DNA of 64,000 nucleotides, from positions 14,191,817 through 14,255,816 of the forward strand of contig NC_090699.1 in the NCBI RefSeq assembly GCF_040954835.1. The letters are read 5' to 3'. The stretch's first letter is position 1, and each line of letters starts with the position of its first letter. The notes below the pieces were generated by a model. The model saw nothing but the letters and a program-made list of their open reading frames with translations. It did no database searches and had not been told where the DNA came from. Below, piece by piece: positions 289 to 64,000 of this stretch. A program made the position numbers and the translations under genes. Source of the DNA: Lepisosteus oculatus (taxonomy: Eukaryota > Chordata > Actinopteri > Semionotiformes > Lepisosteidae).

Positions 289-289
289 C

Positions 290-37200: not shown

Positions 37201-40200
37201 GGCATGAGGTGAAGAGAGGGACAGGGAGCAGCTGACCTGAGCTGCAGTGGTGAGACAGGCCCTGAGAGAGAGTGAGACAGGTGGACAGCAGTGGTGTGAG
37301 GTGAAGAGAGGGACAGGGAGCAGCTGCCAGGCCACAGAGTGACTGGACTCTCTCCTGCAGGGCCGGAGGAGAGGGAGAGGGAGAGAGAGAGGGAGAGAGA
37401 GAGAGACCTGGAGCTGCTGGAGCCCCTGCCCACGGTGGAGCAGTGAGTGACAGCCCGAGGGATGCTGGGGTTCTGTACAGAGGTACCCCTGGGGCTCACC
37501 CTGTCACAGCCCGAGGGACGCTGGGGTTCTGTACAGAGGTACCCCTGGGGTTCGCCCTGTCACAGCCCGAGGGACGCTGGGGCTCTGTACAGAGGTACCC
37601 CTGGGGTTCGCCCTGTCACAGCCCGAGGGACGCTGGGGCTCTGTACAGAGGTACCCCTGGGGTTCGCCCTGTCACAGCCCGAGGGACGCTGGGGTTCTGT
37701 ACAGAGGTACCCCTGGGGTTCGCCCTGTCACAGCCCGAGGGACGCTGGGGCTCTGTACAGAGGTACCCCTGGGGTTCGCCCTGTCACAGCCCGAGGGACG
37801 CTGGGGTTCTGTACAGAGGTACCCCTGGGGTTCGCCCTGTCACAGCCCGAGGGACGCTGGGGCTCTGTACAGAGGTACCCCTGGGGTTCGCCCTGTCACA
37901 GCCCGAGGGACGCTGGGGCTCTGTACAGAGGTACCCCTGGGGTTCGCCCTGTCACAGCCCGAGGGACGCTGGGGATCTGTACAGAGGTACCCCTGGGGTT
38001 CGCCCTGTCACAGCCCGAGGGACGCTGGGGTTCTGTACAGAGGTACCCCTGGGGTTCGCCCTGTCACAGCCCGAGGGACGCTGGGGCTCTGTACAGAGGT
38101 ACCCCTGGGGTTCGCCCTGTCACAGCCCGAGGGACGCTTGGGTTCTGTACAGAGGTACCCCTGGGGTTCGCCCTGTCACAGCCCGAGGGATGCTGGGGCT
38201 CTGTACAGAGGTACCCCTGGGGTTCGCCCTGTCACAGCCCGAGGGATGCTTGGGTTCTGTACAGAGGTACCCCTGGGGTTCACCCTGTCACAGCCTGAGG
38301 GGGTGTCTATGCAGGAGGGAAAGACACAGGTCAGACTGCACTCGAGGGGCCTGAGTGACCTCTGTGACCTGTGTGACCCCTCTCTCACAGGCTTGTGGAC
38401 ACGGCCCCAGAGCAGGACATCGTCCTCCTGCTGGATGAGGAGACGGGGCTGCCCATCACCATTCCTGCAGAGCTCGTCCTGGAGGTCACACCCCCGGTCA
38501 GCGTCTCTCTCCCACCTCTGCCACCCGAGAGAGAGGAGGACAGGGAGAGGGTGGTCAGTCCAGAGGTCAGTTACTCTCACAGTGCAGTGTTAATGTACTG
38601 GAGTGTCCAGTCAGTGTGTCTGTATTAACCTCTCTCTCTCTCTATGTAGCTCCCTGAACTTGATCTTGTCACTCCTAAGAGACGAAGGCGTCAGCTACAG
38701 TTCATTGATCCAGAAACCCAGATAAGCCAGGATGCACTGCGTGAGCAGATTGAAGACCCTCTGGCTGAGACCCAGCGTCCGGTATGAGTGTGAGCGTTCA
38801 CTGAGTTTGATCCACTGTCTCTTTCAGTGATATTAAACTGTGTCCAGTCAGTCAGTGTGTCTGTATGAGCCCCTCTCTCTCAGTGCAGTGTTAATGTACT
38901 GGAGTGTCCAGTCAGTCAGTGTGTCTGTATGAACCCCTCTCTCTCAGTGCATTGTTAATGTACTGGAGTGTCCAGTCAGTGTGTCTGTATGAACCCCTCT
39001 CTCTCTCTCTTTCAGTCTCAGCTCTTGGTACAGGATCCTTTGCTCCGGAGAGAGCCTCCATCAGATCTCTTCAACAGACCTTGTACCTGTGAGTGAGATA
39101 AACATTTCCTCCAGCCTGTCAGTGTGGGACACCCCCTTCAGACAAAAGAGACTTAGTTCCTCCAGCCTGTCAGTGTGGGACACCCCCTTCAGACTAAAGA
39201 GACTCAGTTCCTCCAGCCTGTCAGTGTGGGACACTCCCTTCAGACTAAAGAGACTCAGTTCCTCCAGCCTGTCAGTGTGGGACACTCCCTTCAGACAAAA
39301 GAGACTTAGTTCCTCCAGCCTGTCAGTGTGGGACACTCCCTTCAGACTAAAGAGACTCAGTTCCTCCAGTCTGTCAGTGTGGGACACTCCCTTCAGACAA
39401 AAGAGACTTAGTTCCTTCAGCCTGTCAGTGTGGGACTCTCCCTTCAGACTAAAGAGACTCAGTTCCTCCAGTCTGTCAGTGTGGGACACTCCCTTCAGAC
39501 AAAAGAGACTTAGTTCCTCCAGCCTGTCAGTGTGGGACACTCCCTTCAGACAAAAGAGACTTAGTTCCTTCAGCCTGTCAGTGTGGGACTCTCCCTTCAG
39601 ACTAAAGAGACTCAGTTCCTCCAGTCTGTCAGTGTGGGACACTCCCTTCAGACAAAAGAGACTCAGTTCCTCCAGCCTGTCAGTGTGGGACACTCCCTTC
39701 AGACTAAAGAGACTCAGTTCCTTCAGCTTATCAGTTTAGGACACTCCCTTCAGAATAAAGAGATTCAGTTCCTTCAGCCTGCCAGTGCAGGAAACTCACT
39801 TCAGACTAAAGAGACTCAGTTCCTCCAGCCTGTCAGTGTGGGACACTTCCTTCATGCTAAAGAGACTTTAGTGCAGTTTTTCATGTCATAATCGAGCTCT
39901 GGTCGTGGGAAGGAAGTCCCAGTTGCCCTGTTTGTGCTTGACCAGCAGGGAGGCGACAGAGAGGTCGTGCCACCCTGTGTTGGCAGCAGTGCTCATATTG
40001 CCGTCTCCTGTGTTTCGGTGCCGCTGCTCTGTGCTTGTGTCTGTGGCCCCACGGGCTCCTGCTGTTGTGTCACCCCATTCTTAACAGCTCTCTCTCCCGC
40101 CCTCCCCAGACCTACACCCCGACATCTTGGCTCTGTGGAAGCGCTGTGCCTTCGTCACCCCCACCCCGCTGTCTGTCTGGAGGGAGAGGGAGAGGGAGGA

Positions 40201-42107
40201 GGAGAGAGCGGAGATCAGCGAGAGAGAGGTACAATCCCTCTGTCTGATTCTCTGTCTCTGTGCCTGGTCACCTGTGTCTGTCTGATTCTCAGGGCCTGTC
40301 TGTCTCTGTGCCTGTCTGTCTGTGTCTGTCTGATTCTCAGGGCCTGTCTGTCTCTGTGCCTGGTCACCTGTGTCTGTCTGATTCTCAGGGCCTGTCTGTC
40401 TCAGTGTCTGTCTGATTCTCAGGGCCTGTCTGTCTCTGTGCCTGGTCACCTGTGAACCTGTCTATCTGTATGTCTCGCGATGTGTTTGATGCCTTATGTT
40501 ATCGTGACGGTGAGTGTCTGTGTATTTTTCTCATGTGGTCTTGATCACTTGTGTGTGTCTCACTCTGATCATGTGTGTGTGTCGCCATGTCTCACTCTGA
40601 TCATGTGTGTGTCGCCGTGTCTCACTCTGATCATGTGTGTGTGTCGCCGTGTCTCACTCTGATCATGTGTGTGTCGCTGTGTCTCACTCTGATCATGTGT
40701 GTGTCGCTGTGTCTCACTCTGATCATGTGTGCGCAGGAGCTCAGAGAGATGGTGGAGCTGGGAGTGTCTCAAGTTGAAGTGTCCGGTAAGAACAGCTTCT
40801 AATTAACTCCTCACACTGGTACAGAAAAACATCTCCATCCCTGAGCTCTTACACACAGGAGCTGGGCCTGAGAGAAACCGCACCTCAACCCCAGAGTGGA
40901 CACTTACCCTACTGACGGTGTCCTGGGATCTGGACTGACCAGCGGTCAGGACACCCCTACTCTTCCTGACAGTGTCCTGGGATCTGGACTGACCAGTCAG
41001 GACACCCCTACTCTTACTGACAGTGTCCTGGGATCTGGACTGACCAGCAGTCAGGACACCCCTACTCTTACTGTCAGCGTCCTGGGATCTGTACTGACCA
41101 GTCAGGACACCCCTACTCTTACTGACAGTGTCCTGGGATCTGTACTGACCAGTCAGGACACCCCTACTCTTACTGACAGTGTCCTGGGATCTGGACTGAC
41201 CAGCAGTCAGGACACCCCTACTCTTACTGACAGTGTCCTGGGATCTGGACTGACCAGTCAGGACACCCCTACTCTTACTGACAGTGTCCTGGGATCTGGA
41301 CTGACCAGCGGTCAGGACACCCCTACTCTTACTGACAGTGTCCTGGGATCTGTACTGACCAGCGGTCAGGACACCCCTACTCTTACTGACAGTGTCCTGG
41401 GATCTGGACTGACCAGCAGTCAGGACACCCCTACTCTTACTGACAGTGTCCTGGGATCTGTACTGACCAGTCAGGACACCCCTACTCTTACTGACAGTGT
41501 CCTGGGATCTGGACTGACCAGTCAGGACACCCCTACTCTTACTGACAGTGTCCTGGGATCTGGACTGACCAGCAGTCAGGACACCCCTACACTTACTGAC
41601 AGTGTCCTGGGATCTGTACTGACCAGTCAGGACACCCCTACTCTTACTGACAGTGTCCTGGGATCTGGACTGACCAGCGGTCAGGACACCGCTACTCTTA
41701 CTGACAGTGTCCTGGGATCTGGACTGACCAGCGGTCAGGACACCCCTACTCTTACAGTGTCAGTGTGACCACCTGGCTGACCCGTTGTCCTGTCTGTGGC
41801 AGTGCCCTCAGAGCCCACGCTGGAGGTGTCCGAGGAGGAGCGCTCCCGCATCCTGGTCACCCCGGAGACCAAGTGGTGAGAGGGGGCGTGGCCTGGCGGG
41901 GCGGGGCGGGGCGGGGCCTGGGCGGGGCCGGGGCGCTGGGGCAGGCGTGAGCAGTCCTGATTTCTGCTGACTCGAGTCGGAGCTGCAGCCCCCCGAAGGC
42001 CCGGCAGGAATAAGGGCCTCCCTGTTAAGAGTCAGGACTGCAGGCGGTGTGTGTGTGTGTGTGTGTGTCTGGAGACGCTGATCCCTCTGGAGGGTCAGAG
42101 TCAGGGT

Positions 42108-42173
<66 letters not shown>

Positions 42174-42223
42174 GTCTCCAGTGCCGGAGGTGCTGATCCC
42201 TCTGGAGGGTCAGAGTCAGGGTC

Positions 42224-42257
<34 letters not shown>

Positions 42258-44583
42258 TGCAGGTCTCCAGTGCCGGAGGTGCTGATCACTCTGGAGGGTC
42301 AGAGTTAGGGTAAGGGTGTGTGTGTGTGTGTGTGTGTGTGTCTGCAGGTCTCCAGTGCCGGAGGTGCTGATCCCTCTGGAGGGTCAGAGTCAGGGGGTGT
42401 GTGTGTCTGCAGGTCTCCAGTGCCGGAGGGGCTGATCCCTCTGGAGGGTCAGAGTCAGGGTCAGGGGGTGTGTGTGTGTGTCTGCAGGTCTCCAGTGCCG
42501 GAGGTGCTGATCCCTCTGGAGGGTCAGAGTCAGGGTCAGGGGGTGTGTGTGTGTGTCTGCAGGTCTCCAGTGCCGGAGGTGCTGATCCCTCTGGAGGGTC
42601 AGAGTCAGGGTGTGTGTGTGTGTGTGTGTGTCTGCAGGTCTCCAGTGCCGGAGGTGCTGATCCCTCTGGAGGGTCAGAGTCAGGGTCAGGGGGTGTGTGT
42701 GTGTCTGCAGGTCTCCAGTGCCGGAGGTGCTGATCCCTCTGGAGGGGATCCCAGAGGAGATCCCGGGCCGCAGGGAGAGGGAGCCGGAGGAGGGTCTGAC
42801 GGCTGAGACTGTCCTCGGGTAAGAGAGTCAGCTGCTGTAGAGACTCGTCATACTGGAGCTCATTCAGCACACGAGCTCAGGGAAGCAGGGTGGAGCAGAG
42901 GGGGAGGAGTGTGGAGTACTGTGGGAGCAGTGGAGTAGTAGTGGGTGAGTAGTGTGAAGTAGTGGGGCAGTAGTGTAGAGTAGTGGTTTAATAGTGGGGC
43001 AGTAGTGACCTGTTCACTGTTCGCAGCCTAGCGCATAGTAGTGGGGGTAGTAGTGTAGAGTAATGGGGTAGTAGTGTAGAGTAATGGGGAAGTAGTGTAG
43101 AGAAGTGGTTTAGTAGTGGGGCAGTAGTGTAGAGTAGTGGTTTAGTAGTGGGTGAGTAGTGGGGCAGTAATGTAGAGTGGTAGTTTATTAGTGGGGCAGT
43201 AGTATAGTACTGGGCGAGTAGTGGGACAGTAGGGGTTTAGTAGTGGGGCAGTAGTGTAGAGTAGTGGTATAGTACTGGGTGAGTAGTGGGGCAGTAATGT
43301 AGAGTGGTAGTTTATTAGTGGGGCAGTAGTATAGTACTGGGCGAGTAGTGGGGCAGTAATGTAGAGTGGTGGTTTAGTAGTGGGGAAGTAGTGGTATAGT
43401 ACTGGGCGAGTGGTGGTTTAGTAGTGGGGCAGTAGTGGTATAGTACTGGGCGAGTAGTGGGGCAGTAATGTAGAGTGGTGGTTTAGTAGTGGGGAAGTAG
43501 TGGTATAGTACTGGGCGAGTAGTGGTATAGTAGTGGGGCAGTAGTGGTATAGTACTGGGCGAGTAGTGGTATAGTACTGGGCGAGTGGTGGTTTAGTAGT
43601 GGGGCAGTAGTATAGTACTGGGCGAGTAGTGGTATAGTACTGGGCGAGTGGTGGTTTAGTAGTGGGGCAGTAGTATAGTACTGGGCGAGTAGTGGTATAG
43701 TACTGGGCGAGTAGTGGTTTAGTAGTGGGGCAGTAGTATAGTACTGGGCGAGTGGTGGTTTAGTAGTGGGGCAGTAGTGGTATAGTACTGGGCGAGTAGT
43801 GGTTTAGTAGTGGGGCAGTAGTATAGTACTGGCCACTAACAAGACCCACATGTTCACTGTCTGCAGCCTGGCGGCCGCGGCGCTCAGGCAGTTCAGGCAG
43901 GTGGCCTTCGACTCGCTGCTGCCCCCTGACTGTGACAGGAGAACTGCAGCCCTCTTCTTCTACAGACTGCTGGGTAAGAGACACCTTTCATCCTTCCCTC
44001 ACACTGGGACCTGGCTGTCCAGAGAAGACACACTCAGTATCCACAGCCTGGACACAGACAGACCTGGCTGTCCAGAGAGGACACACTCAGTGTCCACAGC
44101 CTGGACACAGACAGACCTGGCTGTCCAGAGAGGACACACTCAGTGTCCACAGCCTGGACACAGACAGACCTGGCTGTCCAGAGAAGACACACTCAGTATC
44201 CACAGCCTGGACACAGACAGACCTGGCTGTCCAGAGAGGACACACTCAGTGTCCACAGCCTGGACACAGACAGACCTGGCTGTCCAGAGAGGACACACTC
44301 AGTGTCCACAGCCTGGACACAGACAGACCTGGCTGTCCAGAGAAGACACACTCAGTATCCACAGCCTGGACACAGACAGACCTGGCTGTCCAGAGAGGAC
44401 ACACTCAGTGTCCACAAACTGCCCATAGAAACTGGAGGTGTAGAAATATCCAGGTGTGTACAGTGTATATTAACTGAATGTGTGTGTTTTTCAGAGTTGG
44501 TGTCTGCAAGAATCCTGAAAGTGCATCAGGCTGAACCCTACAGCGTCATCATTGTGACACCTGGAGAGCTGTACTCATACTAA
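22222..44583 (+). CDS. rec8: REC8, meiosis-specific kleisin subunit of cohesin, complete
   Basis: Eighteen coding exons: 22222-22277, 26134-26202, 27257-27399, 28506-28581, 29022-29142, 31640-31709, 33085-33152, 36715-36814, 37361-37442, 38391-38565, 38650-38781, 39016-39088, 40110-40228, 40737-40785, 41803-41875, 42711-42818, 43867-43973, 44495-44583. All phases join, giving 569 residues (human 547) if the first donor of exon 5 is used. REC8 closes the SMC1-SMC3 ring and holds sister chromatids until separase cuts it. The N-terminus ([20 protein letters not shown], then [10 protein letters not shown] and [11 protein letters not shown]) is the SMC3-binding Rad21/Rec8 domain. The middle has [20 protein letters not shown] and a basic [10 protein letters not shown] followed by DPETQIS. 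The C-terminus ([41 protein letters not shown]) is the winged-helix SMC1-binding part. Exon 9 holds an unusual Glu-Arg run. Exons 5 and 16 border arrays that copy their splice sites. No poly(A) signal is obvious close downstream. Confidence 0.95.
22300..25740. repeat. 3.4-kb minisatellite (about 42-48 bp) in REC8 intron 1
   Basis: More than 70 units of GTACAGTACCTATAGGATTG, AGGTGG and a variable (GT)n. Variants include TATATGATTG, CCAATAGG and GGTGTTGTG. A block of roughly 0.46 kb recurs (for example 22960-23420 and 23420-23880), so there is higher-order structure. It starts about 25 bases after the exon 1 donor. Confidence 0.96.
25790..26105. repeat. about 49-63 bp minisatellite, end of REC8 intron 1
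   Basis: Units of GTATCCCAGTGTGTCTCC, CCCCTGCTGGCCCAGTGTTG and TATAACAGCT, five to six copies, ending about 25 bases before the exon 2 acceptor. Confidence 0.9.
26270..27075. repeat. GT-rich minisatellite in REC8 intron 2
   Basis: Irregular GTACGTCTCTCAGTGTGTG units with a nearly perfect 120-base triplication at 26610-26950. Region 27076-27256 before exon 3 is ordinary. Confidence 0.85.
27400..28490 (+). repeat. main 60/64-bp satellite, REC8 intron 3
   Basis: About 17 units. The exon 3 donor is GTACATTAACA, which is itself satellite sequence, so the array starts on the splice junction with no spacer. Orientation is opposite to the acceptor-like one. Confidence 0.97.
28650..28905. repeat. 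about 29-bp minisatellite in REC8 intron 4
   Basis: About nine units of ATAAGGGGGGTACACCTGTA, diverged. Confidence 0.88.
29104..31545 (+). repeat. 42/48-bp array copying the REC8 exon 5 end and donor
   Basis: Units are 48 bases (with CACTGCCCAGTCCACTGAGA) or 42 bases (with CACTGACACTGACCTCACAC), ending CTGCCCCAG. All keep the REC8 frame, and no stop appears from exon 5 to 31572. Eleven units end CAG|GTGAGAC (donors at 29143, 29191, 29281, 29629, 29977, 30025, 30481, 30571, 30703, 31141, 31489); the rest have GAGAGAC and lack the GT. Blocks recur at a 348-base period. Confidence 0.96.
31715..32375. repeat. purine-rich minisatellite in REC8 intron 6
   Basis: Irregular units of GGTTAATACTGCAGTGAGAG, 20-33 bases, about 25 copies. 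It starts just after the exon 6 donor. Confidence 0.92.
32583..33050. repeat. 62-bp minisatellite in REC8 intron 6
   Basis: About seven units with GGTGGGGTTATCTCACAGGA and TTTGCCCCAGTGTGGGGT. It ends about 35 bases before the exon 7 acceptor. Region 32376-32582 shows diverged relatives. Confidence 0.94.
33160..33392. repeat. (CT)n low-complexity tract
   Basis: TCTCTCCCTCTCC-type pyrimidine run after the exon 7 donor. It resumes at 36440-36710 beyond the LINE, so the LINE entered one long CT tract that forms the C/T run of the exon 8 acceptor. Confidence 0.9.
33390..36435 (-). mobile_element. APE-type non-LTR retrotransposon (LINE), 5'-truncated, in REC8 intron 7
   Basis: The minus-strand reading frame 36386-33885 (833 codons) opens in the end of the APE endonuclease (PLSDHSQI) and covers a whole reverse transcriptase: [33 protein letters not shown], and the YADD catalytic motif. 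It is stopped by TGA at about 33885, while frame and a Cys/His segment (CSHC..H..C) continue after the stop to about 33740. The 3' end is an AT-rich stretch plus (TTGAA)n near 33400. It is flanked by (CT)n on both sides, so target-site duplications are unreadable. It is antisense to REC8. I do not assign the clade. Confidence 0.9.
36815..37335. repeat. purine-rich minisatellite starting at the REC8 exon 8 donor
   Basis: Units GTGAGACAGGCCCTGAGAGA and AGCAGTGTGAGAATAGAGA. The first unit is the donor itself (GTGAGACAGG at 36815), so donor-like GTGAGAC repeats many times. A second block has GGACAGCAGTGG and GTGAAGAGAGGGACAGG. Confidence 0.93.
37443..38310. repeat. 56-bp minisatellite in REC8 intron 9
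   Basis: About 15 nearly identical units (GAGGTACCCCTGGGGTTCGC, CAGCCCGAGGGACGCTGGGG), starting 6 bases after the exon 9 donor. Same family as 6413-6738. The unit length allows several long but meaningless reading frames. Confidence 0.96.
38566..38649 (+). repeat. 84-bp REC8 intron 10 made of one satellite unit
   Basis: After GTCAGTTACTCTCA the intron is one main-satellite unit in the acceptor-like orientation (CAGTGCAGTGTTAATGTACT, then GTGTCTGTATTAACC and CTCTCT) ending ATGTAG. Confidence 0.93.
38845..39015 (+). repeat. two to three main-satellite units at the end of REC8 intron 11
   Basis: Acceptor-like orientation. The last unit (TGTCTGTATGAACCCC, CTCTCTCTCTCTTTCAG) is the exon 12 acceptor. 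Confidence 0.95.
39100..39870. repeat. 51-bp minisatellite in REC8 intron 12
   Basis: About 15 units of CCTCCAGCCTGTCAGTGTGG and GACACTCCCTTCAGACTAAA, in reverse orientation to 20095-20492. It starts about 12 bases after the exon 12 donor. Region 39871-40109 is nonrepetitive. Confidence 0.95.
40235..40460. repeat. CT/GT-rich minisatellite in REC8 intron 13
   Basis: Units GTCTGATTCTCAGGGCCTGT and CTGTCTCTGTGCCTGGTCAC. A second array, TCTCACTCTGATCATGTGTG (about seven copies, 40555-40735), fills the rest of the intron up to the exon 14 acceptor. Confidence 0.9.
40890..41765. repeat. about 51-54 bp minisatellite in REC8 intron 14
   Basis: About 17 units of GACAGTGTCCTGGGATCTGG and ACTGACCAGTCAGGACACCC; AGCAG or AGCGG insertions vary the length by three. 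Confidence 0.95.
42045..42710 (+). repeat. 65-90 bp array copying the REC8 exon 16 acceptor
   Basis: Seven extra copies (near 42171, 42263, 42347, 42412, 42488, 42562, 42638) plus one partial of (GT)n, CTGCAG| and the first 36 exon bases (GTCTCCAGTGCCGGAGGTGC, then TGATCCCTCTGGAGGG). The true exon follows at 42711. Confidence 0.95.
42890..43840. repeat. GTAGTGG-rich minisatellite in REC8 intron 16
   Basis: Irregular units such as GTGGTTTAGTAGTGGGGCAG and TATAGTACTGGGCGAG, about 950 bases, ending just before the exon 17 acceptor. Confidence 0.93.
44005..44415. repeat. 53-bp minisatellite in REC8 intron 17
   Basis: About eight units of ACCTGGCTGTCCAGAGAGGA and TCCACAGCCTGGACACAGAC, starting about 30 bases after the exon 17 donor. 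Two subtypes (GAAGACAC..GTATCC and GAGGACAC..GTGTCC) recur every third unit. Confidence 0.95.
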
Positions 44584-44639
44584 CACACTCACTCACACTG
44601 ACACACAGTGATATACCGCTACAACAATTGACACACACT

Positions 44640-46764: not shown

Positions 46765-47275
46765 ACATTAACACTGCACTGAGAGGGGTTAATACAGACA
46801 CACTGACTGACTGGACACTCCAGTACATTAACACTGCACTGAGAGAGAGGGGTTCATACAGACACACTGACTGACTGGACACTCCAGTACATTAACACTG
46901 CACTGAGAGAGAGGGGTTCATACAGACACACTGACTGACTGGACACTCCAGTACATTAACACTGCACTGAGAGAGGGGGGTTCATACAGACACACTGACT
47001 GGACACTCCAGTACATTAACACTGCACTGAGAGAGAGGGGTTCATACAGACACACTGACTGACTGGACACTCCAGTACATTAACACTGCACTGAGAGAGA
47101 GGGGTTCATACAGACACACTGACTGGACACTCCAGTACATTAACACTGCACTGAGAGAGAGGGGTTCATACAGACACACTGACTGACTGGACACTCCAGT
47201 ACATTAACACTGCACTGAGAGAGAGGGGTTCATACAGACAGACTGACTGACTGGACACTGCAGTAAATTAACACT
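46765..47275 (+). repeat. main 60/64-bp satellite, REC8 to unknown-gene interval
   Basis: About eight units, flanked by single-copy AT-rich DNA. Region 47276-48151 after it is the likely upstream region of the unknown gene; it holds a short duplication (CTCCTGTCCTGTTGTGT near 47576 and 47641) and no other feature I can support. Confidence 0.96.
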
Positions 47276-48151: not shown

Positions 48152-51100
48152 ATGGTGCGCTCCGATCTGGAGAGGGATCTGCCCCTCTGCGTCTCCCTGC
48201 CCATCGAACTGCTGAGCGTGGAGGAGGCCTTTCCCTTCCTGGACCTGACGCTGAGGGACCTGGGGATCTCACAGTGAGTCCGCTGGGAGAGAGAGAGACA
48301 CTGAGGGATCTGGGGATCACAGTGAGTCTGGCTGGGACAGAGCGAGACACTAAGGGATCTGGGGATCTCACAGTGAGTCTGACTGGGAAAGAGAGACACT
48401 GAGGGACCTAGGGATCTCACAGTTAGTCTGGCTGGGGGAGAGAGAGAGAGACACTGAGGGACCTGGGGATCTCACAGTGAGTCTGACTGGGAAAGAAACA
48501 CTGGGGGATCTCACAGTGAGTCTGACTGGGAAAGAGAGACACTGAGGGATCTGGGGATCTCACAGTGAGTCTGACTGGGAAAGAGAGACACTGAGGGATC
48601 TGGGGATCTCACAGTGAGTCTGACTGGGAAAGAGAGACACTGAGGGACCTAGGGATCTCACAGTTAGTCTGGCTGGGGGAGAGAAAGAGACACTGAGGGA
48701 TCTGGGGATCTCACAGTGAGTCTGACTGGGAAAGAAACACTGGGGGATCTCACAGTGAGTCTGACTGGGAAAGAGAGACACTGAGAGGACCTAGGGATCT
48801 CACAGTGAGTCTGACTGGGAAAGAGAGACACTGAGGGATCTGGGGATCTCACAGTGAGTCTGGCTGGGGGAGAGAGAGAGAGAGAGACACTGAGGGACCT
48901 GGGGATCTCACAGTGAGTCTGGCTGGGGGAGAGAGAGAGAGACACTGAGGGACCTGGGGCGGGGAGAGAGAGACACACTGAAGGACCTGGGGCTGGGAAA
49001 GAGAGAGACACTGGAGGATCTGGAGCTGGGAGGGAGAGAGAGACACTGGGGGACCTGGGGATCTCACAGTGAGCGGCTGGGAGAGAGAGAGAGAGAGAGA
49101 GAGACACACTGGGGGATTTGGGGCTGGGAGAGAGAGACACTGGGGGATATGGGGCTGGGAGAGAGAGTCGGTGAGCAGGCGTGCGCCTCGGGACCCACGT
49201 GCACCACACGAGTCGGTGAGCAGGCGCCTCGGGACCCATGTGCACCACACGAGTCGGTGAGCAGGCGCCTAGGGACCCACGTGCAACACACGAGTCGGTG
49301 AGCGGGCGTGAGCCTCGTGACCCGTGTGCACCGCACGAGGAGAGCACCACAGCCCCAACTTACGTTACTACCAGTCAGCAGTGTTATAGATCGTAATCTA
49401 GTGAGGGTGTGTCTGCGCAGGTCTGCAGTAAAGGAGAAGGTGTTCTGGGTGGACAGCACGAAGACTCGGGTCCGGAAGGGCCCCAGCCAGCTGCGGGAGA
49501 AGGAGGTCCTGGTCGTGGAGGCCCGGGTCCGAGTGCAGAGGACCGGCGACCCGCAGGAGCAGGAGATCCTGTACAGCACCGAGACGCACACGGACCGCAG
49601 TTACTGCAGGAGCTGTGTGTCGGTGCTGCCCTGGAGACACACCCAGAGAGGTGAGTGGGGCCAGGCTGTTTAGATCTCAGACAGCATTAATGATGGATTA
49701 ATCTGATCTCATTCCGTTCCCCAGGCTGTGAAATAACACACCCGGGTGAGACGGACACTTCACTGCAGGAAAATGAAAAAAAAAAATTTCAAGCCAGCAT
49801 CTTCCAACTGAATGTATCAACATATTTACAACTCACTCTCCAGCTGCATTCTAAACGTACTGTAGTGTCCAGTCAGTCAGTGTGTCTGTATGAACCCCTC
49901 TCTCTCAGTGCAGTGTTAATGTACTGGAGTGTCCAGTCAGTCAGTGTGTCTGTATGAACCCCTCTCTCTCAGTGCAGTGTTAATGTACTGGAGTGTCCAG
50001 TCAGTCAGTGTGTCTGTATGAACCCCTCTCTCTCAGTGCAGTGTTAATGTACTGGAGTGTCCAGTCAGTCAGTGTGTCTGTATGAACCCCTCTCTCTCAG
50101 TGCAGTGTTAATGTACTGGAGTGTCCAGTCAGTCAGTGTGTCTGTATGAACCCCTCTCTCTCAGTGCAGTGTTAATGTACTGGAGTGTCCAGTCAGTCAG
50201 TGTGTCTGTATGAACCCCTCTCTCTCAGTGCAGTGTTAATGTACTGGAGTGTCCAGTCAGTCAGTGTGTCTGTATGAACCCCTCTCTCTCAGTGCAGTGT
50301 TAATGTACTGGAGTGTCCAGTCAGTCAGTGTGTCTGTATGAACCCCTCTCTCTCAGTGCAGTGTTAATGTGCTGGAGTGTCCAGTCAGTCAGTGTGTCTG
50401 TATGAACCCCTCTCTCTCAGTGCAGTGTTAATGTACTGGAGTGTCCAGTCAGTCAGTGTGTCTGTACTAACCCCTCTCTCTCTCAGTGCAGTGTTAATGT
50501 ACTGGAGTGTCCAGTCAGTCAGTGTGTCTGTATGAACCCCTCTCTCTCAGTGCAGTGTTAATGTACTGGAGTGTCCAGTCAGTGTGTCTGTATGAACCCC
50601 TCTCTCTCTCAGTGCAGTGTTAATGTACTGGAGTGTCCAGTCAGTCAGTGTGTCTGTATGAACCCCTCTCTCTCAGTGCAGTGTTAATGTACTGGAGTGT
50701 CCAGTCAGTCAGTGTGTCTGTATGAACCCCTCTCTCTCAGTGCAGTGTTAATGTACTGGAGTGTCCAGTCAGTGTGTCTGTATGAACCCCTCTCTCTCAG
50801 TGCAGTGTTAATGTACTGGAGTGTCCAGTCAGTCAGTGTGTCTGTATGAACCCCTCTCTCTCAGTGCAGTGTTAATGTACTGGAGTGTCCAGTCAGTGTG
50901 TCTGTATGAACCCCTCTCTCTCAGTGCAGTGTTAATGTACTGGAGTGTCCAGTTAGTCAGTGTGTCTGTATGAACCCCTCTCTCTCAGTGCAGTGTTAAT
51001 GTACTGGAGTGTCCAGTCAGTCAGTGTGTCTGTATGAACCCCTCTCTCTCAGTGCAGTGTTACTGTGCTGGAGTGTCCAGTCAGTCAGTGTGTCTGTATG

Positions 51101-52629
51101 AACCCCTCTCTCTCAGTGCAGTGTTAATGTACTGGAGTGTCCAGTTAGTCAGTGTGTCTGTATGAACCCCTCTCTCTCAGTGCAGTGTTAATGTACTGGA
51201 GTGTCCAGTCAGTCAGTGTGTCTGTATGAACCCCTCTCTCTCAGTGCAGTGTTAATGTACTGGAGTGTCCAGTCAGTGTGTCTGTATGAACCCCTCTCTC
51301 TCAGTGCAGTGTTAATGTACTGGAGTGTCCAGTCAGTCAGTGTGTCTGTATGAACCCCTCTCTCTCAGTGCAGTGTTAATGTACTGGAGTGTCCAGTCAG
51401 TCAGTGTGTCTGTATGAACCCCTCTCTCTCAGTGCAGTGTTAATGTACTGGAGTGTCCAGTCAGTCAGTGTGTCTGTATGAACCCCTCTCTCTCAGTGCA
51501 GTGTTAATGTACTGGAGTGTCCAGTCAGTCAGTGTGTCTGTATGAACCCCTCTCTCTCAGTGCAGTGTTAATGTACTGGAGTGTCCAGTCAGTGTGTCTG
51601 TATGAACCCCTCTCTCTCAGTGCAGTGTTAATGTACTGGAGTGTCCAGTCAGTCAGTGTGTCTGTATGAACCCCTCTCTCTCAGTGCAGTGTTAATGTAC
51701 TGGAGTGTCCAGTTAGTCAGTGTGTCTGTATGAACCCCTCTCTCTCAGTGCAGTGTTAATGTACTGGAGTGTCCAGTCAGTCAGTGTGTCTGTATGAACC
51801 CCTCTCTCTCAGTGCAGTGTTACTGTGCTGGAGTGTCCAGTCAGTCAGTGTGTCTGTATGAACCCCTCTCTCTCAGTGCAGTGTTAATGTACTGGAGTGT
51901 CCAGTTAGTCAGTGTGTCTGTATGAACCCCTCTCTCTCAGTGCAGTGTTAATGTACTGGAGTGTCCAGTCAGTCAGTGTGTCTGTATGAACCCCTCTCTC
52001 TCAGTGCAGTGTTAATGTACTGGAGTGTCCAGTCAGTGTGTCTGTATGAACCCCTCTCTCTCAGTGCAGTGTTAATGTACTGGAGTGTCCAGTCAGTCAG
52101 TGTGTCTGTATGAACCCCTCTCTCTCAGTGCAGTGTTAATGTACTGGAGTGTCCAGTCAGTCAGTGTGTCTGTATGAACCCCTCTCTCTCAGTGCAGTGT
52201 TAATGTACTGGAGTGTCCAGTCAGTCAGTGTGTCTGTATGAACCCCTCTCTCTCAGTGCAGTGTTAATGTACTGGAGTGTCCAGTCAGTCAGTGTGTCTG
52301 TATGAACCCCTCTCTCTCAGTGCAGTGTTAATGTACTGGAGTGTCCAGTCAGTCAGTGTGTCTGTATGAACCCCTCTCTCTCAGTGCAGTGTTAATGTAC
52401 TGGAGTGTCCAGTCAGTCAGTGTGTCTGTATGAACCCCTCTCTCTCAGTGCAGTGTTAATGTACTGGAGTGTCCAGTCAGTCAGTGTATTATTAACCCCT
52501 CTTTCTCTCCTAGAAGGGCTGCCAGAGAACAGTGACAAGACAGTGGAGATGGTTGTTGCTGTGGATACAGAATCACATCCAAACTGGCAGAAAACCAAAG
52601 AAACCAAAGGAAATTTGATCCTGAATTAG
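48152..52629 (+). CDS. unrecognised three-exon gene between REC8 and IPO4 (155 aa)
   Basis: Exons 48152-48273, 49421-49650 and 52514-52629 have good GT-AG borders, and the phases (2, then 1) join to 155 residues ending in TAG. I do not recognise the product. Exon 1 reads MVRSDLERDLPLCVSLPIEL then a hydrophobic-acidic helix-like stretch (EEAFPFLDLTLRDLGI). Exon 2 is charged, with WVDSTKTRVRKGPS, alternating beta-like VLVVEARVRVQ, and a single CRSC pair near its end. Exon 3 is polar. No signal peptide or membrane segment is seen. Exon 1 might start further upstream, because a CTCCCAG acceptor-like site precedes the ATG by about 20 bases and the frame stays open to it. Poly(A) signals at 53123-53135 support a real transcript. 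The mammalian block has no gene I know here. It could be a lineage-specific gene or the end of a larger one. Confidence 0.55.
48242..49080 (+). repeat. about 50-bp array copying the donor of unknown-gene exon 1
   Basis: Around 14 extra copies of GAGGGACCTGGGGATCTCAC plus AGTGAGTCTG (exon end and donor), separated by GGGAAAGAGAGACACT-type purine runs. Copies near 48420 and 48660 have GTTAGT in place of GTGAGT. A further unit, GAGTCGGTGAGCAGGCG with GGGACCCACGTGCACC, is repeated at 49165-49330. Confidence 0.94.
49855..52500 (+). repeat. 2.6-kb main satellite array, intron 2 of the unknown gene
   Basis: About 42 units in the acceptor-like orientation (GTCTGTATGAACCCCTCTCT). Variants such as GTTAGTCAGTG, TTACTGTGCTGG and CTGTACTAACC mark a duplicated block of about 750 bases (compare 50935-51290 with 51700-52050). 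The last unit becomes the exon 3 acceptor. Confidence 0.97.
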
Positions 52630-55087: not shown

Positions 55088-55093
55088 TTTTAT
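55088..55093 (-). promoter_or_regulatory. IPO4 poly(A) signal
   Basis: AATAAA on the minus strand, about 480 bases after the IPO4 stop, in AT-rich 3' UTR-like DNA (55080-55570). Confidence 0.65.
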
Positions 55094-55571: not shown

Positions 55572-58500
55572 CTAGGAGGCAGTAACAGCAGAGGTCACCG
55601 TGGCCCTCCCCTGAGCAGGAAGTGACATCACAGCGGTCTGGAACTCCTGTGGATAACGCTGGGCGACGTCTCTGAGCAACAGAAGCAAAGTGTTCTGGAT
55701 ATCTGAAACAGAGAACAACAGCCAATATAGACACCCTGACAGAACACTGCATTACAAAAGCAAAGGGCATCAGATTGTCACAGCCTTTTCACATCTCTGC
55801 TCATTCTCTTTCAGACATAAAGCAGACAATAAATAATGATGAAATGAAGACAAAGTAATACCCACTACAACATTCTTGGATAAACCAAAAAAATCCATGC
55901 AGATTTAACTATTGTTGTACTTAAGAAATATTACTACAGTACAGTAATGCAAGTATTGTTTCCTGTGATCCACACAATAACAAAGAAAATATCCCTCAAA
56001 TGTCCACTAATGTTTAAAAGTGCTCCGCACTCCTGACGAGCACACCGTGACGTCCTGTCACCGGTGAACAGTCGAGCCACCACGCTCCTGACGAGCACAC
56101 AGTGACGTCCTGTCACCGGTGAACAGTCAAGCCACCGCGCTCCTGACGAGCACACAGTGACGTCCTGTCACCGGTGAACAGTCAAGCCACCGCGCTCCTG
56201 ACGAGCACACAGTGACGTCCTGTCACCGGTGAACAGTCAAGCCAACACACTCCTGACGAGCACACAGTGACGTCCTGTCACCGGTGAACAGTCAAGCCAC
56301 CGCGCTCCTGACGAGCACACAGTGACGTCCTGTCACCAGTGAACAGTCAAGCCAACACGCTCCTGACGAGCACACAGTGACGTCCTGTCACGGGTGAACA
56401 GTCAAGCCAACACACTCCTGACGAGCACACAGTGACGTCCTGTCACGGGTGAACAGTCAAGCCAGCACACTCCTGACGAGCACACAGTGACGTCCTGTCA
56501 CCGGTGAACAGTCAAGCCACCGCGCTCCTGACGAGCACACAGTGACGTCCTGTCACCAGTGAACAGTCAAGCCACCACGCTCCTGACGAGCACACAGTGA
56601 CGTCCTGTCACCAGTGAACAGTCAAGCCACCGCGCTCCTGACGAGCACACGGTGACGTCCTGTCATGGGTGAACAGTCAAGCCACCGCGCTCCTGACGAG
56701 CACACAGTGACGTCCTGTCATGGGTGAACAGTCAAGCCACCGCGCTCCTGACGAGCACACAGTGACGTCCTGTCACCAGTGAACAGTCAAGCCAACACAC
56801 TCCTGACGAGCACACAGTGACGTCCTGTCACCAGTGAACAGTCAAGCCAACACACTCCTGACGAGCACACAGTGACGTCCTGTCACGGGTGAACAGTCAA
56901 GCCAACACACTCCTGACGAGCACACAGTGACGTCCTGTCACCGGTGAACAGTCAAGCCACCGCGCTCCTGACGAGCACACAGTGACGTCCTGTCACCAGT
57001 GAACAGTCAAGCCACCGCGCTCCTGACGAGCACACAGTGACGTCCTGTCACCGGTGAACAGTCAAGCCACCACACTCCTGACGAGCACACAGTGAAGTCC
57101 TGTCACCAGTGAACAGTCAAGCCAACACACTCCTGACGAGCACACAGTGACGTCCTGTCACCGGTGAACAGTCAAGCCAACACACTCCTGACGAGCACAC
57201 AGTGACGTCCTGTCACCCGTGAACAGTCAAGCCAACACACTCCTGACGAGCACACAGTGACGTCCTGTCACCCGTGAACAGTCAAGCCAACACACTCCTG
57301 ACGAGCACACAGTGACGTCCTGTCACTGGTGAACAGTCGAGCCACCGCGCTCCTGACGAGCACACCGTGACACAGTGGGTTAAACAGCTCAAGAACCTGA
57401 AACGGTGAATTGCAGTACGACAGTACAGCACAGATGACAGACACAGACACACACAGAGTGACAGACAACAACAGATGACGCCTCACCAGGCTTGAGTTCT
57501 TTGGTTCCCAGGACCTGACTGACTGCAGACACCACTGGCTTCAGGTGTCCCACAACCTGCACAACACAGCACAGGAGAACACTTACTCAGGCTGTACACT
57601 GCTACATCACTCTGGGAGGTGTTTTTATGGTTAGTGTAATTATTTCAGTATTTCTGGCTATTAAAGAAACATCCAAAAAGGGCGTCAATTTTCAGGCATT
57701 TATGATTTTCAAAACATAACTAAACCGGTAATGACGTCAATAGACCGTTCAGTAGCACGTTCATAGAGAACTGCACTTCATACAGGCGATTTCAGCTTCT
57801 ATGTCCATTATGGCTTCGACTCAATTTTTGTTTCACAAAATCACTAACTTCACTCCCTCCCCATTTGATGCCTGGTGTTTGTGCACTGGAAGTATTCTCT
57901 CCCAGCGTCAGTAGCACTGAAGTCATTTGGCCTGTTTTCACCACAGGCTGTGCTGGCTGTGATTCTGCCCCCTGTGTTGCTGCTCCCTGGCTTGTATTGG
58001 CACTGTAACGTCAGCACGGAGAGAGGAGGCCTGTACTAGCAACCCGCCCGTACGGCACTGTGCTCAGAAAATACCTTTGATAAACTCCAGCAATCCTGCC
58101 ATTTAGAGACCCAGAACTTTAATCCAACTCAAAATCCGAGAAGGAATGAGACCGAACTCCTTATTTTGGAATGAATTATTTTCTCCTGTCCCACTGTGAT
58201 GACACCTTTTCTGTTGTCTTGGGCTCTTTCTCTTCCAGTGTGGACCCCGCTAAACAGTGACAGTCCAGACTGGACACTGCTGTCCCAAGAAGTTTCTTTT
58301 ATCCCCCAGATGGACGCCACTGTGCAAAGCACTGTGCTTTTAGACTTTTTTTAAGATCACTTTATTGGCCATATACAATTTCTTGCACTAGGAATGTGTC
58401 TTTTTCCAGACCCCAGCTTGTTCTCCATGAGAGACACAGACAGGGAGAGAAGCTGGGGGTCAGAGCGCAGGGTCAGCCATTTATACAGCACCCCTGGAGC

Positions 58501-61500
58501 AGCTGGGGTGAAGGGCCTCGCTCAGGGGCCCAGTGGCGTAGGATTCCTCTGCCGGCTGTGGGATTTGAACCGGCAACCTTCCAGCCACAGGCGCAGATCC
58601 TGAGCCACAGAGCCACCACACCACACTTCTGCTTTTGCTTTTTCCCTGTTTCCTCCCTCTGACCTGACACTGGGACCTCAAACGGTTACACTGCTACCCT
58701 GTGCTGAAGTGCTCTCTTCCTATGCCCACTTGTCCTTCAGAGCTGGAGAGGGTTTCTGGGGTCTTCACTGCCCTCTCCAGCGCTACCGCCGCACCACTGG
58801 TGACTGATCTCTGCTGGGGTGACAGGGGCGGACACACTTGTCTGGGATGAACACAGCGGCCTCCGCTCACAGTGTCACTGCGTTACCATACGTGGTGTGG
58901 TGGCTCTGTGGCTCAGGATCTGCACCTGTGGCTGGAAGGCTGCCGGTTCGAATCCCACTCCATTGGGCCCCTGAGCGAGGCCCTTCAGCCCCGCTGCTCC
59001 AGGGGTGCTGTATAAATGGCTGACCCTGCGCTCTGACCCCCAGCTTCTCTCCCTGTCTGTGTGTCTCATGGAGAGCAAGCTGGGGTCTGAGAAAAGAATT
59101 GTATACATTTTGGAGAAATTGTATATGTATTTGTATGTGGCCAATAAAGTGAGCTCATACATGCGTCCATCACAGGCTGGGGCCCCGAAACCCACGGAGC
59201 GGTCGAGGCCGGCCCCCGAGCTCGGGTTGACGTGCCCCGTTCCCTGCCGTCTCACCAGCGGCTGTGTGTGGGTGTAGAGGAAGGCCAGGCAGCTGAACAC
59301 GGTGCTGTTCTCCTCCAGGTCCTCCTTCAGGGGGAGACATGACAGCACGGCAGGGAGCACCTGAGACAGCAGACAGGGGACAGAGAAGAGGGACAGGTTC
59401 TTGATCATCGGAAATGTACATCTGACAAAAGAGCTGCAAAATATTACCTCCACAAAAAGAGACACTTCACAGCGACAAGCAACAGTTTCATCATTCTTGA
59501 CACTCCTGACAGAGGGCAGAGTTTAGCAGTCCATGTATGTAGTACAAACCATTTTCTTTTGTATGTAATAATATTCCTTACGCTTATATTTCTGGACACT
59601 CCACTCACAAGCTCTTTGCAGGTAATGGGGATCCCCTCCACCACCACCAGTGTGCAGCCCCTCCTGGATGATGCACCAGTCTGCTCACACACACCAGCTC
59701 TCAGTGGGGAGGAGAGCAGAGTGATGAGGCCAGTTCAGAGAGGGGGGTTATCAGGAGGCCATGACTGGTAAAGGCCAGGAGGAAATTTGGGCAGCATGCT
59801 GGGGTAACACCCCTACTCTCTTCGAGAAACACCCTGGGGTTTTTACTGACCACAGAGAGTCAGGACCTCAGGGTTTACGTCTCATCACATTGCTGGGAGA
59901 TGAATCCACAATGTGTCCGGAAGTGGAGGACGAGGATGGGATTTAGCATGAACGTGCTTCAGCCCCGGAGGGGGAGAGAGGCAGATCACATGCGCACTCA
60001 CCTGCTCCAGCGGGACGCACTCGGTGTTGGCCAGGATCATGCGGCTCAGCGCGGCACACAGGTTGTCGATCACCCTGCGGTCAGACTCCCGGGACAGCAG
60101 GGAGGAGAACAGCGCCAGCATGGCGGGGTAGTCTCTGAGACAGGGAGTCAAGGCAACGACGGAGACGGGAGAGGAGGGGGCAAAGGGCACCGCAGAGTCC
60201 GCAAAAACATCCCGCTCCTTCCAGACGGCATCCTGCAGGCCTGCGCTAATGTGTGCTCAGTGTGCAGACAGCAGGCAGGATACTGTGAGAGGGCAGGCCC
60301 GCAGGCCTGAGCTAGCGCCCCCACCCTGAGCACAGTGGAACTGCACCTCTCCCACTCACACTCCCTACAGCTCAGTGTGCAGACAGCAGGCAGGATACTG
60401 TGAGAGGGCAGGCCTGAGCTAGCGCCCCCTTCCTGAGCACAGTGGAACTGCACCTCTCCCACTCACACTCCCTACAGCTCAGTGTGCAGACAGCAGGCAG
60501 GATACTGTGAGAGGGCAGGCCTGAGCTAGCGCCCCCACCCTGAGCACAGTGGAACTGCACCTCTCCCACTCACACTCCCTACAGCTCAGTGTGCAGACAG
60601 CAGGCAGGATACTGTGAGAGGGCAGGCCTGACCTAGCGCCCCCTTCCTGAGCACAGTGGAACTGCACCTCTCCCACTCACACTCCCTACAGCTCAGTGTG
60701 CAGACAGCAGGCAGGATACTGTGAGAGGGCAGGCCTGAGCTAGCGCCCCCACCCTGAGCACAGTGGAACTGCACCTCTCCCACTCACACTCCCTACAGCT
60801 CAGTGTGCAGACAGCAGGCAGGATACTGTGAGAGGGCAGGCCTGACCTAGCGCCCCCTTCCTGAGCACAGTGGAACTGCACCTCTCCCACTCACACTCCC
60901 TACAGCTCAGTGTGCAGACAGCAGGCAGGATGTGAGAGGGCAGGCCTGACCTAGCGCCCCCTTCCTGAGCACAGTGGAACAGCACCTCTCCCACTCACAC
61001 TCCCTACAGCTCAGTGTGCAGACAGCAGGCAGGATACTGTGAGAGGGCAGGCCTGACCTAGCGCCCCCTTCCTGAGCACAGTGGAACTGCACCTCTCCCA
61101 CTCACACTCCCTACAGCTCAGTGTGCAGACAGCAGGCAGGATGTGAGAGGGCAGGCCTGAGCTAGCGCCCCCTTCCTGAGCACAGTGGAACTGCACCTCT
61201 CCCACTCACACTCCCTACAGCTCAGTGTGCAGACAGCAGGCAGGATACTGTGAGAGGGCAGGCCTGAGCTAGCGCCCCCACCCTGAGCACAGTGGAACTG
61301 CACCTCTCCCACTCACACTCCCTACAGCTCAGTGTGCAGACAGCAGGCAGGATACTGTGAGAGGGCAGGCCTGACCTAGCGCCCCCTTCCTGAGCACAGT
61401 GGAACAGCACCTCTCCCACTCACACTCCCTACAGCTCAGTGTGCAGACAGCAGGCAGGATACTGTGAGAGGGCAGGCCTGACCTAGCGCCCCCTTCCTGA

Positions 61501-63554
61501 GCACAGTGGAACTGCACCTCTCCCACTCACACTCCCTACAGCTCAGTGTGCAGACAGCAGGCAGGATGTGAGAGGGCAGGCCTGACCTAGCACCCCCTTC
61601 CTGAGCACAGTGGAACTGCACCTCTCCCACTCACACTCCCTACAGCTCAGTGTGCAGACAGCAGGCAGGATACTGTGAGAGGGCAGGCCTGAGCTAGCGC
61701 CCCCACCCTGAGCACAGTGGAACTGCACCTCTCCCACTCACACTCCCTACAGCTCAGTGTGCAGACAGCAGGCAGGATACTGTGAGAGGGCAGGCCCGCA
61801 GGCCTGAGCTAGCGCCCCCACTCCAAACACACTGTTGCTCCGCACCTCGGCATCGCTGTCCCTCACGCCGCCCACCAGCACTGGCAGCAGTCGACTGGCC
61901 AGCTGGACGGCGACGGGCGCGCCACCCGACACCCCCCCGAGTGCCTGCAGGATCTCGGCCAGCGTGCCCAGAGAGAAGGAGCGGTCAGCCACCGTGCAGG
62001 AGGGCTTCTGCCAGGGAGAGACAGAGGGCAGGGGAGGTGTGAACACACTCACCCCAACTGCGCAACACAGCACACTAACACGAGCTTGTGAATACAACAT
62101 GTGTGCCAAGAGTGTTCTTTCAGACAGACAACAGAGTAACAGAGTGTGTGCGATAGTGTGACAGAGTGAAACAGAGCATGTGTGAGTGTGATACAGTGTG
62201 TAAGAGTGGGAGTGTGATACAGTGTGTTAGTTTGATAGTGTCTAAGATTGTGTGAAACTGTGCGTTATACAGTAACAGTGTGTGATGCAGTGTGTGCGTC
62301 TGACAGACTCACAGTCTTGTTGATCAGCAGGGGCAGCAGCTCGTTCAGGTAGGGGGAGAAGGTCTCTCCTGGCACAGCGGCTGCGAGGAGGGGAATACCC
62401 TCGCCAGCGAACTCCTGCAGCATGGCGTCATACTCTGCCTGGAACACAGGGCGGCAGCACAGCGCAGTCAGCAGCCCCCCGCCCAGGTCAACGCGTGACT
62501 CAGGGCATTACTGGCCTGTCTGGACCAGCCGGGGATCACCAGGGTCTACAGTGCAAAGTGTAGACCTCACACTGAAGCTCACAACACACAGGTTCGGTCT
62601 GGCCAGCATAGCACACAAACACACTGCAGCCTCGGAAAGAGTTTAAAGAAGATCAATAGGCATGATTCCTGGTTCCCGTCAGGAGATCGTAATATACCCT
62701 GAGAAACATCCATCCATTCATTTTCTATCTATTTCTCCCAATACAGGATCACAGGGGAGATGGAGTCTATCCCAGCAAGCACTGGGTGCAAGGCAGGGTA
62801 CAGCCTAAAGGGGACGCCCGTCCAGCACACAGCAGAGACACACACACACACACACACCAGGCCCAGTTCTCCCAGAAGCCAATCAACCGGTAGTATGTCT
62901 CTGGATTGTGGGAGAAAACTGGTTCACCCAGAGGAAATCACATGAACACAGGGAGAACATGCAGACTCCACACAGACAGCACCGCTGGAACTGAACCCAG
63001 GGCCCAGGGCTGTGAGGAGGCAATGGTCACCCCTGAGCTGCTGTGCTGCCAGTCTCCCAGGTCAAAGGAGATGAATCTCCTCAGTCTACGGAGAGGCAGG
63101 GGGAGAAACCAGTTCCAAGTATTGCTAAAACAGTATAAAACAGAGACGGCCCAGTGGCTGACTCTTCTTCTCGTGGCCAAGTCCTGAAGAACCTCAAGCA
63201 CTTCAACAGCAGCTCCTTCCCACTGCCAGAGCTCCTCCAGACTCCCACTACAGCACTCTCCTCCAGTCATGAAACACCTTAAGCCGACACCTGTCCTCGT
63301 CTGTGCTTCAGCGTGGCAGGGGACTCGTCTATGAGCGTCCTCCGTTGCTCAGAAGACAAAGCACGTGGCTCCACAGCAAAGAGAACACTCCCAGCAGACA
63401 GCACTCCAGGATCACAGGGACACAGGCAGACAGGGAGAGGAACTGAGGGAGCCACTGCTGCTAGCAGAGCCTTCTACTGACAGAGAGACAGAGACAAACT
63501 CCATACCTGCTGCTCGTCATCATCTCCATCATCTCCTGCATCCTGACAAGCTGT
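55572..63554 (-). CDS. ipo4: IPO4, importin-4 (HEAT-repeat nuclear import receptor), C-terminal part (runs off right edge)
   Basis: Seven coding exons on the minus strand: 63554-63507, 62438-62313, 62007-61781, 60134-60002, 59360-59256, 57556-57487, 55702-55572. Phases join and the last ends in TAG. Importin-4 is a Ran-dependent karyopherin-beta that carries histones, ribosomal proteins and other cargo into the nucleus. The first exon seen encodes the acidic TACQDAGDDGDDDEQQ loop typical of the family. The next exons encode C-terminal HEAT repeats: EYDAMLQEFAGEGIPLLAAA, CTVADRSFSLGTLAEILQAL, DAEVRSNSVFGVGALAQACG, DRRVIDNLCAALSRMI, LPLKEDLEENSTVFSCLAFL, and NTLLLLLRDVAQRYPQEFQ near the end. 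The 61781 donor (CACA|GTATCC) is weak and is copied 14 times in the following array. The gene converges on the unknown gene, as IPO4 converges on REC8 in human. Confidence 0.92.
56025..57370. repeat. 55-60 bp minisatellite in IPO4 intron
   Basis: About 24 units of CTCCTGACGAGCACACAGTG, ACGTCCTGTCACCGGTGAAC and AGTCAAGCCA, with CCGG/CCAG/CGGG variants. It ends about 120 bases before the exon at 57487. Confidence 0.95.
58340..58640 (-). mobile_element. tRNA-derived SINE, minus orientation, in IPO4 intron
   Basis: Reverse of the element at 58890: CCAGCTTGTTCTCCATGAGA, GCACCCCTGGAGCAGCTGGG, GGGATTTGAACCGGC (inverted B box), and CAGATCCTGAGCCACAGAGC. Confidence 0.88.
58890..59165 (+). mobile_element. 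tRNA-derived SINE, plus orientation, in IPO4 intron
   Basis: TGGCTCTGTGGCTCAGGATC head, CCGGTTCGAATCCC B box, CTGCTCCAGGGGTGCTGTAT, GAGAGCAAGCTGGGGTCTGA and tail CCAATAAAGTG. It faces away from the copy at 58340. Confidence 0.9.
60238..61800 (-). repeat. 107-bp array copying the IPO4 donor at 61781
   Basis: Fourteen extra copies of exon end plus donor (minus strand GGGGGCGCTAGCTCAGGCCT, CCTCTCACA|GTATCC) plus intron start. Eleven keep the GT; three (near 60927, 61139, 61565) have a 3-base deletion that removes it. The true exon and the farthest copy share CCCGCAGG, which the middle copies lack. Confidence 0.96.
62720..63030 (-). mobile_element. tRNA-derived (DANA-like) SINE, minus orientation, IPO4 intron
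   Basis: Reverse landmarks: GGATCACAGGGGAGATGGAG and CCCGTCCAGCACAC (tail), GTATGTCTCTGGATTGTGGG, AGGGAGAACATGCAGACTCC, CACCGCTGGAACTGAACCCA. Region 63031-63506 shows no supported exon. Confidence 0.85.
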
Positions 63555-63559
63555 CTGCA

Positions 63560-64000
63560 ATAGAGAGAGAGGGGTTCATACAGACACACTGACTGACTGG
63601 ACACTCCAGTACATTAACACTGCACTGAGAGAGAGGGGTTCATACAGACACACTGACTGACTGGACACTCCAGTACATTAACACTGCACTGAGAGAGAGG
63701 GGTTCATACAGACACACTGACTGACTGGACACTCCAGTACATTAACACTGCACTGAGAGAGAGAGGGGTTCATACAGACACACTGACTGACTGGACACTC
63801 CAGTACATTAACACTGCACTGAGAGAGAGGGGTTCATACAGACACACTGACTGGACACTCCAGTACATTAACACTGCACTGAGAGAGAGGGGTTCATACA
63901 GACACACTGACTGGACACTCCAGTACATTAACACTGCACTGCGAGAGAGGGGTTCATACAGACACACTGACTGACTGGACACTCCAGTACATTAACACTG
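63560..64000 (-). repeat. main 60/64-bp satellite, IPO4 intron, continues past the window
   Basis: About seven units in the acceptor-like orientation for IPO4. The first (TGTATGAACCCC, CTCTCTCTATTGCAG) is the acceptor of the exon at 63554. Confidence 0.97.

Follow-up and report, generated by a model that had tools for sequence, protein, structure and literature searches.

The stretch of the Lepisosteus oculatus genome (1.2 Gb) analyzed here, a window of 64,000 bp (C4:14191817-14255816; C and L numbers are our own handles for contigs and loci), carries RNF31, PSME2, REC8, a further gene without an assigned name, and IPO4, and tandem repeat makes up 59% of it. The main repeat is a satellite whose unit combines a branch-point-like word, a C/T tract and AG, and whose arrays lie mainly in the sense orientation against intron acceptors, both here and elsewhere in the genome. 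A 14-mer from its core (TGTCTGTATTAACC, up to two mismatches) has 115 matches in the window, in 11 clusters, versus a mean of 0.4 in five mononucleotide shuffles. The preliminary description of the window listed nine acceptors bearing this core, and all nine were found at the positions claimed, each with a pyrimidine tract and AG at its end. The exons following the acceptors at 454, 5742, 12740 and 13362 match RNF31 or PSME2, the identities of REC8 and IPO4 are backed by other exons (Rad21_Rec8_N and Importin-4, respectively), and the exon past 52513 gave no match in a homology search or in Pfam. The satellite features of the window are collected in Table 1.

Table 1. Satellite arrays and core-bearing introns of the window, numbered from its first base.
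Position	Strand	Feature
1..289	-	Satellite array from the RNF31 donor (GT 288-289, CAG|GTCAGTGTGTCTGTATTAACC), truncated by the start of the window
454..486	-	Only core TGTCTGTATTGACC at an RNF31 acceptor; RNF31 zinc-finger match (E 8.7e-5) in the following exon
2656..3743	-	RNF31 intron, all sense array, 17 cores; branch-point word at the edge TACTGAC
5742..5821	-	Short RNF31 intron, core TGTCTGTGTTGACC; following exon matches RNF31
12632..12740	+	PSME2 intron with exact core and diverged unit upstream
13271..13362	+	PSME2 intron, core TGTCTGTATCAACC
16830..17572	-	Antisense array in PSME2 intron 9 (16814-17770); Tandem Repeats Finder start 16830, 16 nt into the intron
27400..28505	-	Antisense array filling REC8 intron 3, starting at the donor (27400) and stopping 20 nt short of the intron end
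38566..38649	+	REC8 84-bp intron, donor stretch plus one satellite unit
38782..39015	+	REC8 intron, about 2.7 sense units up against the acceptor
46787..47260	-	8-core array, no gene assigned
49860..52513	+	41-core array at an acceptor-like end, unidentified gene; edge word TATTATTAAC
63555..64000	-	Array at an IPO4 acceptor, truncated by the end of the window; IPO4 named from other exons

The unit has the layout TGTCTGTAT(T/G)AAC, C/T tract, AG, TGCAGTGTTAATGTACTGGAGTGTCCAGTCAGTG, so that units read TGTAT(T/G)AAC before the tract, and the T form fits a branch point. It recurs head to tail in long arrays with a spacing of mostly 54-66 bp, the commonest value varying by region (56-58, 60, 62, 64 or 66 bp). 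Judged by eye, sites 454, 5742 and 13318 of the window have a core of about 20 nt and no clear unit upstream, and site 12702 has an upstream unit that is present but diverged; the RNF31 intron at 2656-3743 and the REC8 intron at 38566-38649 (84 bp, a single unit) are entirely satellite. The earlier statement that an antisense array does not adjoin the acceptor holds for PSME2 intron 9, where the array stops about 200 nt short of the acceptor, but fails for REC8 intron 3, where it stops 20 nt short of the intron end. The array at L039 is broken three times by the same AT-rich block of about 113 bp (TAATAATAATATAATAATAAAC...), which makes it a higher-order repeat.

Genome-wide, an exact 13-mer has 5,511 matches versus 67 for its reversed control, and a core with 11 pyrimidines directly after it matches 7,917 times versus 3. 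As a rough guess there are about 1,300 satellite loci, an extrapolation from the first 100 matches to the core with its C/T tract, which by our own count make up 17 loci and are assumed to be typical. A literal word for which all places were listed occurs at 97 places, in blocks on C2, C4, C6, C7, C12, C14, C26, C30, C32 and C471. Isolated 13-mers number 13 on C1 and C2, and among the five inspected (L041-L044, L058) only L042 contains a unit fragment.

Array position was read at places outside the window in three samples: the first listed places on C1-C3 (17 arrays, counting L047 and L048 as one array split by a retrotransposon), a rare word with seven places in four loci (eight arrays), and eight places across the 97-place list (about 70 loci after merging by hand), of which three extended past the piece fetched. 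Arrays end at an acceptor, in sense, in 15/17, 8/8 and 3/5 readable cases, respectively; thus, among 30 arrays whose 3' ends were resolved, 26 end at a sense acceptor followed by an exon. Because the places were found by word matches, these counts sample arrays and not introns. In 22 of 23 arrays measured by script, at most 31 nt separate the last satellite-like word from the exon, while in the other (L053) the distance is 76 nt with a diverged core in between; the acceptor positions of L109, L112 and L113 were judged by eye.

Homology supports the exons of 18 of the 26 acceptor-ending arrays: SMARCC2, ADCY5, RASGRP1, iASPP, BCKDHA, PER1, PCOLCE, GIGYF1, two PLD2 exons, Sushi/CUB/CUB, two serine-protease exons, two ARHGEF exons (ARHGEF1 included) and BCL3. 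The remaining eight rest on reading frames and on families to which we presume them to belong; for two of these (L021, L045) Pfam gives weak hints. The claim that a shared intron-end element is also the core of the satellite, across many unrelated genes, is thus borne out by the genome-wide counts and by the arrays.

The resemblance of the core to TACTAAC, also pointed out in the preliminary description, is truer of acceptor cores than of the satellite at large, because the internal units of the window mostly read TATGAAC, which does not fit the branch-point motif yUnAy. Within the window (the edge at 52470 being added by hand) yUnAy is fitted by 6/9 acceptor cores versus 5/107 other cores (p = 1.2e-5), the other 102 being misfits. 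Across 15 informative arrays from the window and outside it, scored by eye, three edges have the non-fitting letter versus 6.4 expected (p = 0.016). This suggests that the last unit may be used as the branch point, or that edge units may have had a different history.

The junctions of 24 arrays outside the window that could be read at both ends, L047 and L048 being treated separately, indicate where units may have entered. The 5' end falls inside the C/T tract in 11/24 (p = 0.002 versus 12/64) and the 3' end in 8/24 (alone p = 0.065); a further 10/24 of 3' ends lie at the unit's own AG, giving 18/24 for both classes together. At L021 a single unit, flanked by CT on both sides, precedes a lipid-kinase-like exon (weak Pfam support). 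The final bases ahead of the exon often differ from gene to gene, and for this reason the last tract and its AG may belong to the native intron. The notion of a ready-made acceptor accordingly stands in one respect, since each unit holds a branch-point-like word, a C/T tract and AG, but not in another, since the last bases before the exon often vary.

On balance, we favor the reading that a dispersed satellite family occupies the polypyrimidine tract of pre-existing acceptors of introns. By a modest preference over the other accounts, its units appear to enter the C/T tract of such acceptors, where they can contribute a branch point and expand as tandem copies. A unit would first enter a native C/T tract via matching CT repeats, which would fix its orientation; the inserted unit could then supply a branch point, so that splicing would survive; tandem amplification would follow, and copies would seed introns in nearby genes. 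The local steps would proceed by DNA copying, through template switching or conversion, and an L1-group retrotransposon set in CT tracts may have brought units to new regions. Since junctions often fall in CT repeats, any target-site duplication would be hidden.

Several observations weigh against this reading. Three of the nine window acceptor cores do not fit yUnAy, and three window arrays are antisense or have no assigned gene. Outside the window, 13/24 of the 5' junctions lie outside the C/T tract, and 4/30 arrays do not end at a sense acceptor: L050, the minus-strand array of L057, L110, which is not at an acceptor, and L111, which stops about 230 bp short of a likely one. Homology searches with four L050 fragments gave no match. 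The 40-bp unit fragment at L042, excluded from the 30 arrays, is away from any acceptor. Acceptor use was judged from exon homology and reading frames, not from RNA, and insertion is inferred because no empty site was seen among the loci. Pyrimidine tracts of at least 14 bases are common outside the satellite (on the two strands together, 216 in 209 kb), so the bias to acceptors may need more than C/T targeting to explain it. In the comparison of loci described next, some near pairs belong to one gene, and similarity within a contig is 0.73 at 1-5 Mb but 0.82 beyond 5 Mb, so that distance is not the sole factor.

The unit was evidently copied between genes, because unrelated genes on several contigs share it, the stretch ahead of the branch-point word included. 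In a k-mer comparison of 43 arrays and flanks, mean similarity is 0.94 for pairs less than 1 Mb apart (104 pairs) and 0.69 for pairs on different contigs (632 pairs), a contrast reached in 0/5000 permutations. Since copies within 1 Mb are alike, spread looks mostly local, and the similarity of neighboring copies favors DNA copying for the local steps. For some steps reverse transcription is favored instead, because a long interspersed nuclear element (LINE) is linked to the satellite.

This LINE, found inside the iASPP array, encodes an AP (apurinic/apyrimidinic)-type endonuclease (Exo_endo_phos) and a reverse transcriptase (RVT_1), and its protein matches LINE-1 open reading frame 2 (ORF2) with E = 5e-82. 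A search with its 3' end gave 40 scored matches, on C3, C4, C14, C18 and C618. All 20 of the 3' flanks read start with a CT tract, from which 12 continue into satellite in sense, one into another copy and seven into other CT-rich repeats. Among 20 5' flanks (an overlapping but not identical set, also from 40 scored matches), a clean CT tract precedes the LINE in 18, full satellite units lie upstream in 13, a partial unit stands directly before the element with other sequence around it in five, and two have none. Three of the 12 satellite-joined 3' flanks (L068, L080, L082, separate from the 30 arrays above) reach an acceptor within the piece read, followed at L080 by a kinase exon. One copy (C4:14163946-14169664) lies about 22 kb ahead of the window and is flanked on either side by this satellite, and at L073 two head-to-tail copies are separated by a CT tract alone. 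The joining of a CT-set L1-group LINE to an acceptor satellite is a new observation. Kibi is a (TC)n-specific Tx1/L1-group LINE of fish, and the present element resembles the Tx1/L1 group in its AP-type endonuclease, its L1-like reverse transcriptase and the CT tracts at its ends, a likeness drawn from proteins and CT sites; it differs in that the commonest host site of the copies read is the acceptor satellite. Tx1 target specificity and microsatellite targets are treated in PMC4640811.

It is tempting, but tentative, to go further and suppose that the satellite has taken about a thousand 3' splice sites, its own branch point replacing the native one, and that it is moved by the LINE, which would target the CT tract common to acceptors, the two forming a two-part mobile system with the splice acceptor as its niche. 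A related and slightly more doubtful account is target-primed reverse transcription, by which the LINE would nick polypyrimidine tracts on their purine strand and a GA primer would pair with CU tracts in satellite RNA or in LINE read-through RNA, so that sense units would land at acceptors with or without the LINE. The enzymes encoded near LINE-1 ORF2, the CT tracts on both sides and the satellite in the flanks all speak for this, as does the similarity, judged by eye, between the LINE 3' end (GATTGAAC(CT)n) and the unit end (GTATGAACC(CT)n). However, the 3'-side CT could be the LINE's own tail, and the five partial-unit flanks may represent only about three independent events. In addition, only L047/L048 among the arrays of the first two samples contains the LINE within the few kb read, the LINE was found on five contigs among the 40 scored matches per search while the satellite occurs on further contigs, and a process acting in trans would not predict strong regional similarity.

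Selection offers an improbable alternative to entry through the C/T tract: satellite units would insert at random, and mainly the sense copies at acceptors would be retained. An upstream sense copy does offer rival acceptors and could do harm unless it abuts the exon, and the better branch-point words of the window acceptor cores agree with such sorting, but antisense and intergenic copies would then be expected to be common and few were seen (in word-match samples from gene-rich blocks, which are not random).

Still less probable is that the unit is a mobile intron that made new introns, the introner-like gain that the preliminary description had entertained. The two wholly satellite introns of RNF31 and REC8, and the arrays that begin at or next to a donor, would suit such gain, but many arrays have no donor in the preceding 70 bases, and PLD2 points the other way. 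The array-bearing PLD2 intron lies near query residue 64; in two paralogues the first match stops at residues 64 and 60, and the next match starts at residue 94 or 88, 6-7 kb off, which places an intron in each. The comparison covers one intron and matches its upstream border only, the residues between being left unmatched; within that scope, the exon preceding the array stops at roughly the same residue in both paralogues, and the array-bearing intron looks old. The other origin put forward in the preliminary description, a satellite born from an intron end, is possible.

That every array expanded locally out of the end of the intron it occupies, in the manner of mirages or stuttering and with no movement between genes, is scarcely credible: tandem growth is obvious, the window is 59% tandem repeat, and amphioxus and birds are known to have repeats that grow at exon borders (PMC3087553 and PMC12954441), but the same unit, upstream part included, occurs in unrelated genes on several contigs, and gene-local origin as the sole cause was rejected on this sharing.

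The satellite can be compared with several known systems. The mirages of amphioxus, as PMC3087553 describes them, are minisatellite-like tandem duplications of exon-intron boundaries; they too repeat splice signals in tandem at the ends of introns, but they copy one gene's boundary, whereas the satellite unit is common to unrelated genes and includes no local exon, since by eye the stretch after AG does not change from one unrelated gene to another. On avian dot chromosomes, sequence stuttering likewise swells introns by tandem repeats near exon borders, but its repeats are gene-local (PMC12954441), whereas the satellite is a dispersed family, mainly at acceptors, whose unit does not originate from each gene's own sequence, being common to unrelated genes on several contigs. 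Introners, reported from only two animal groups according to PMC9860276, are dispersed elements with splice signals in many genes, and similar copies of the satellite do lie in introns of many unrelated genes; introners, however, create introns, and the tested PLD2 intron looks old. Searches of open-licence papers brought up no report of a shared satellite at splice acceptors.

Other repeats and signals were noted along the way. The window has a 98-bp minisatellite family common to 4577-4869 and 12881-13175, a 56-bp family common to 6411-6736 and 37450-38301, and a 51-bp family at 20098-20497 and 39106-39867 in opposite orientations. A repeat with a 121-bp period (GGGGTGGGGAACAAGCTGCCCAG in the first copy) lies at 596-954 and 20662-20897, and its words recur where L110 ends; it appears to be dispersed. 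The array at L097 starts a few bases from the donor of an exon that we take to be sulfotransferase-like. The donor of REC8 intron 3 (GTACAT, 27400) is apparently derived from an antisense satellite unit, and thus the satellite may supply donors too.

Satellites are usually regarded as centromeric, intergenic or passive within introns, whereas the family described here lies mainly at a splice signal and in sense, in many unrelated genes. At acceptors it may supply the branch point. Through it, the invasion of working splice sites by a repeat without destruction of the gene, the copying of splice signals from gene to gene and the growth of introns all become testable, and its block-wise distribution along the genome of L. 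oculatus constitutes a natural experiment in branch-point turnover.

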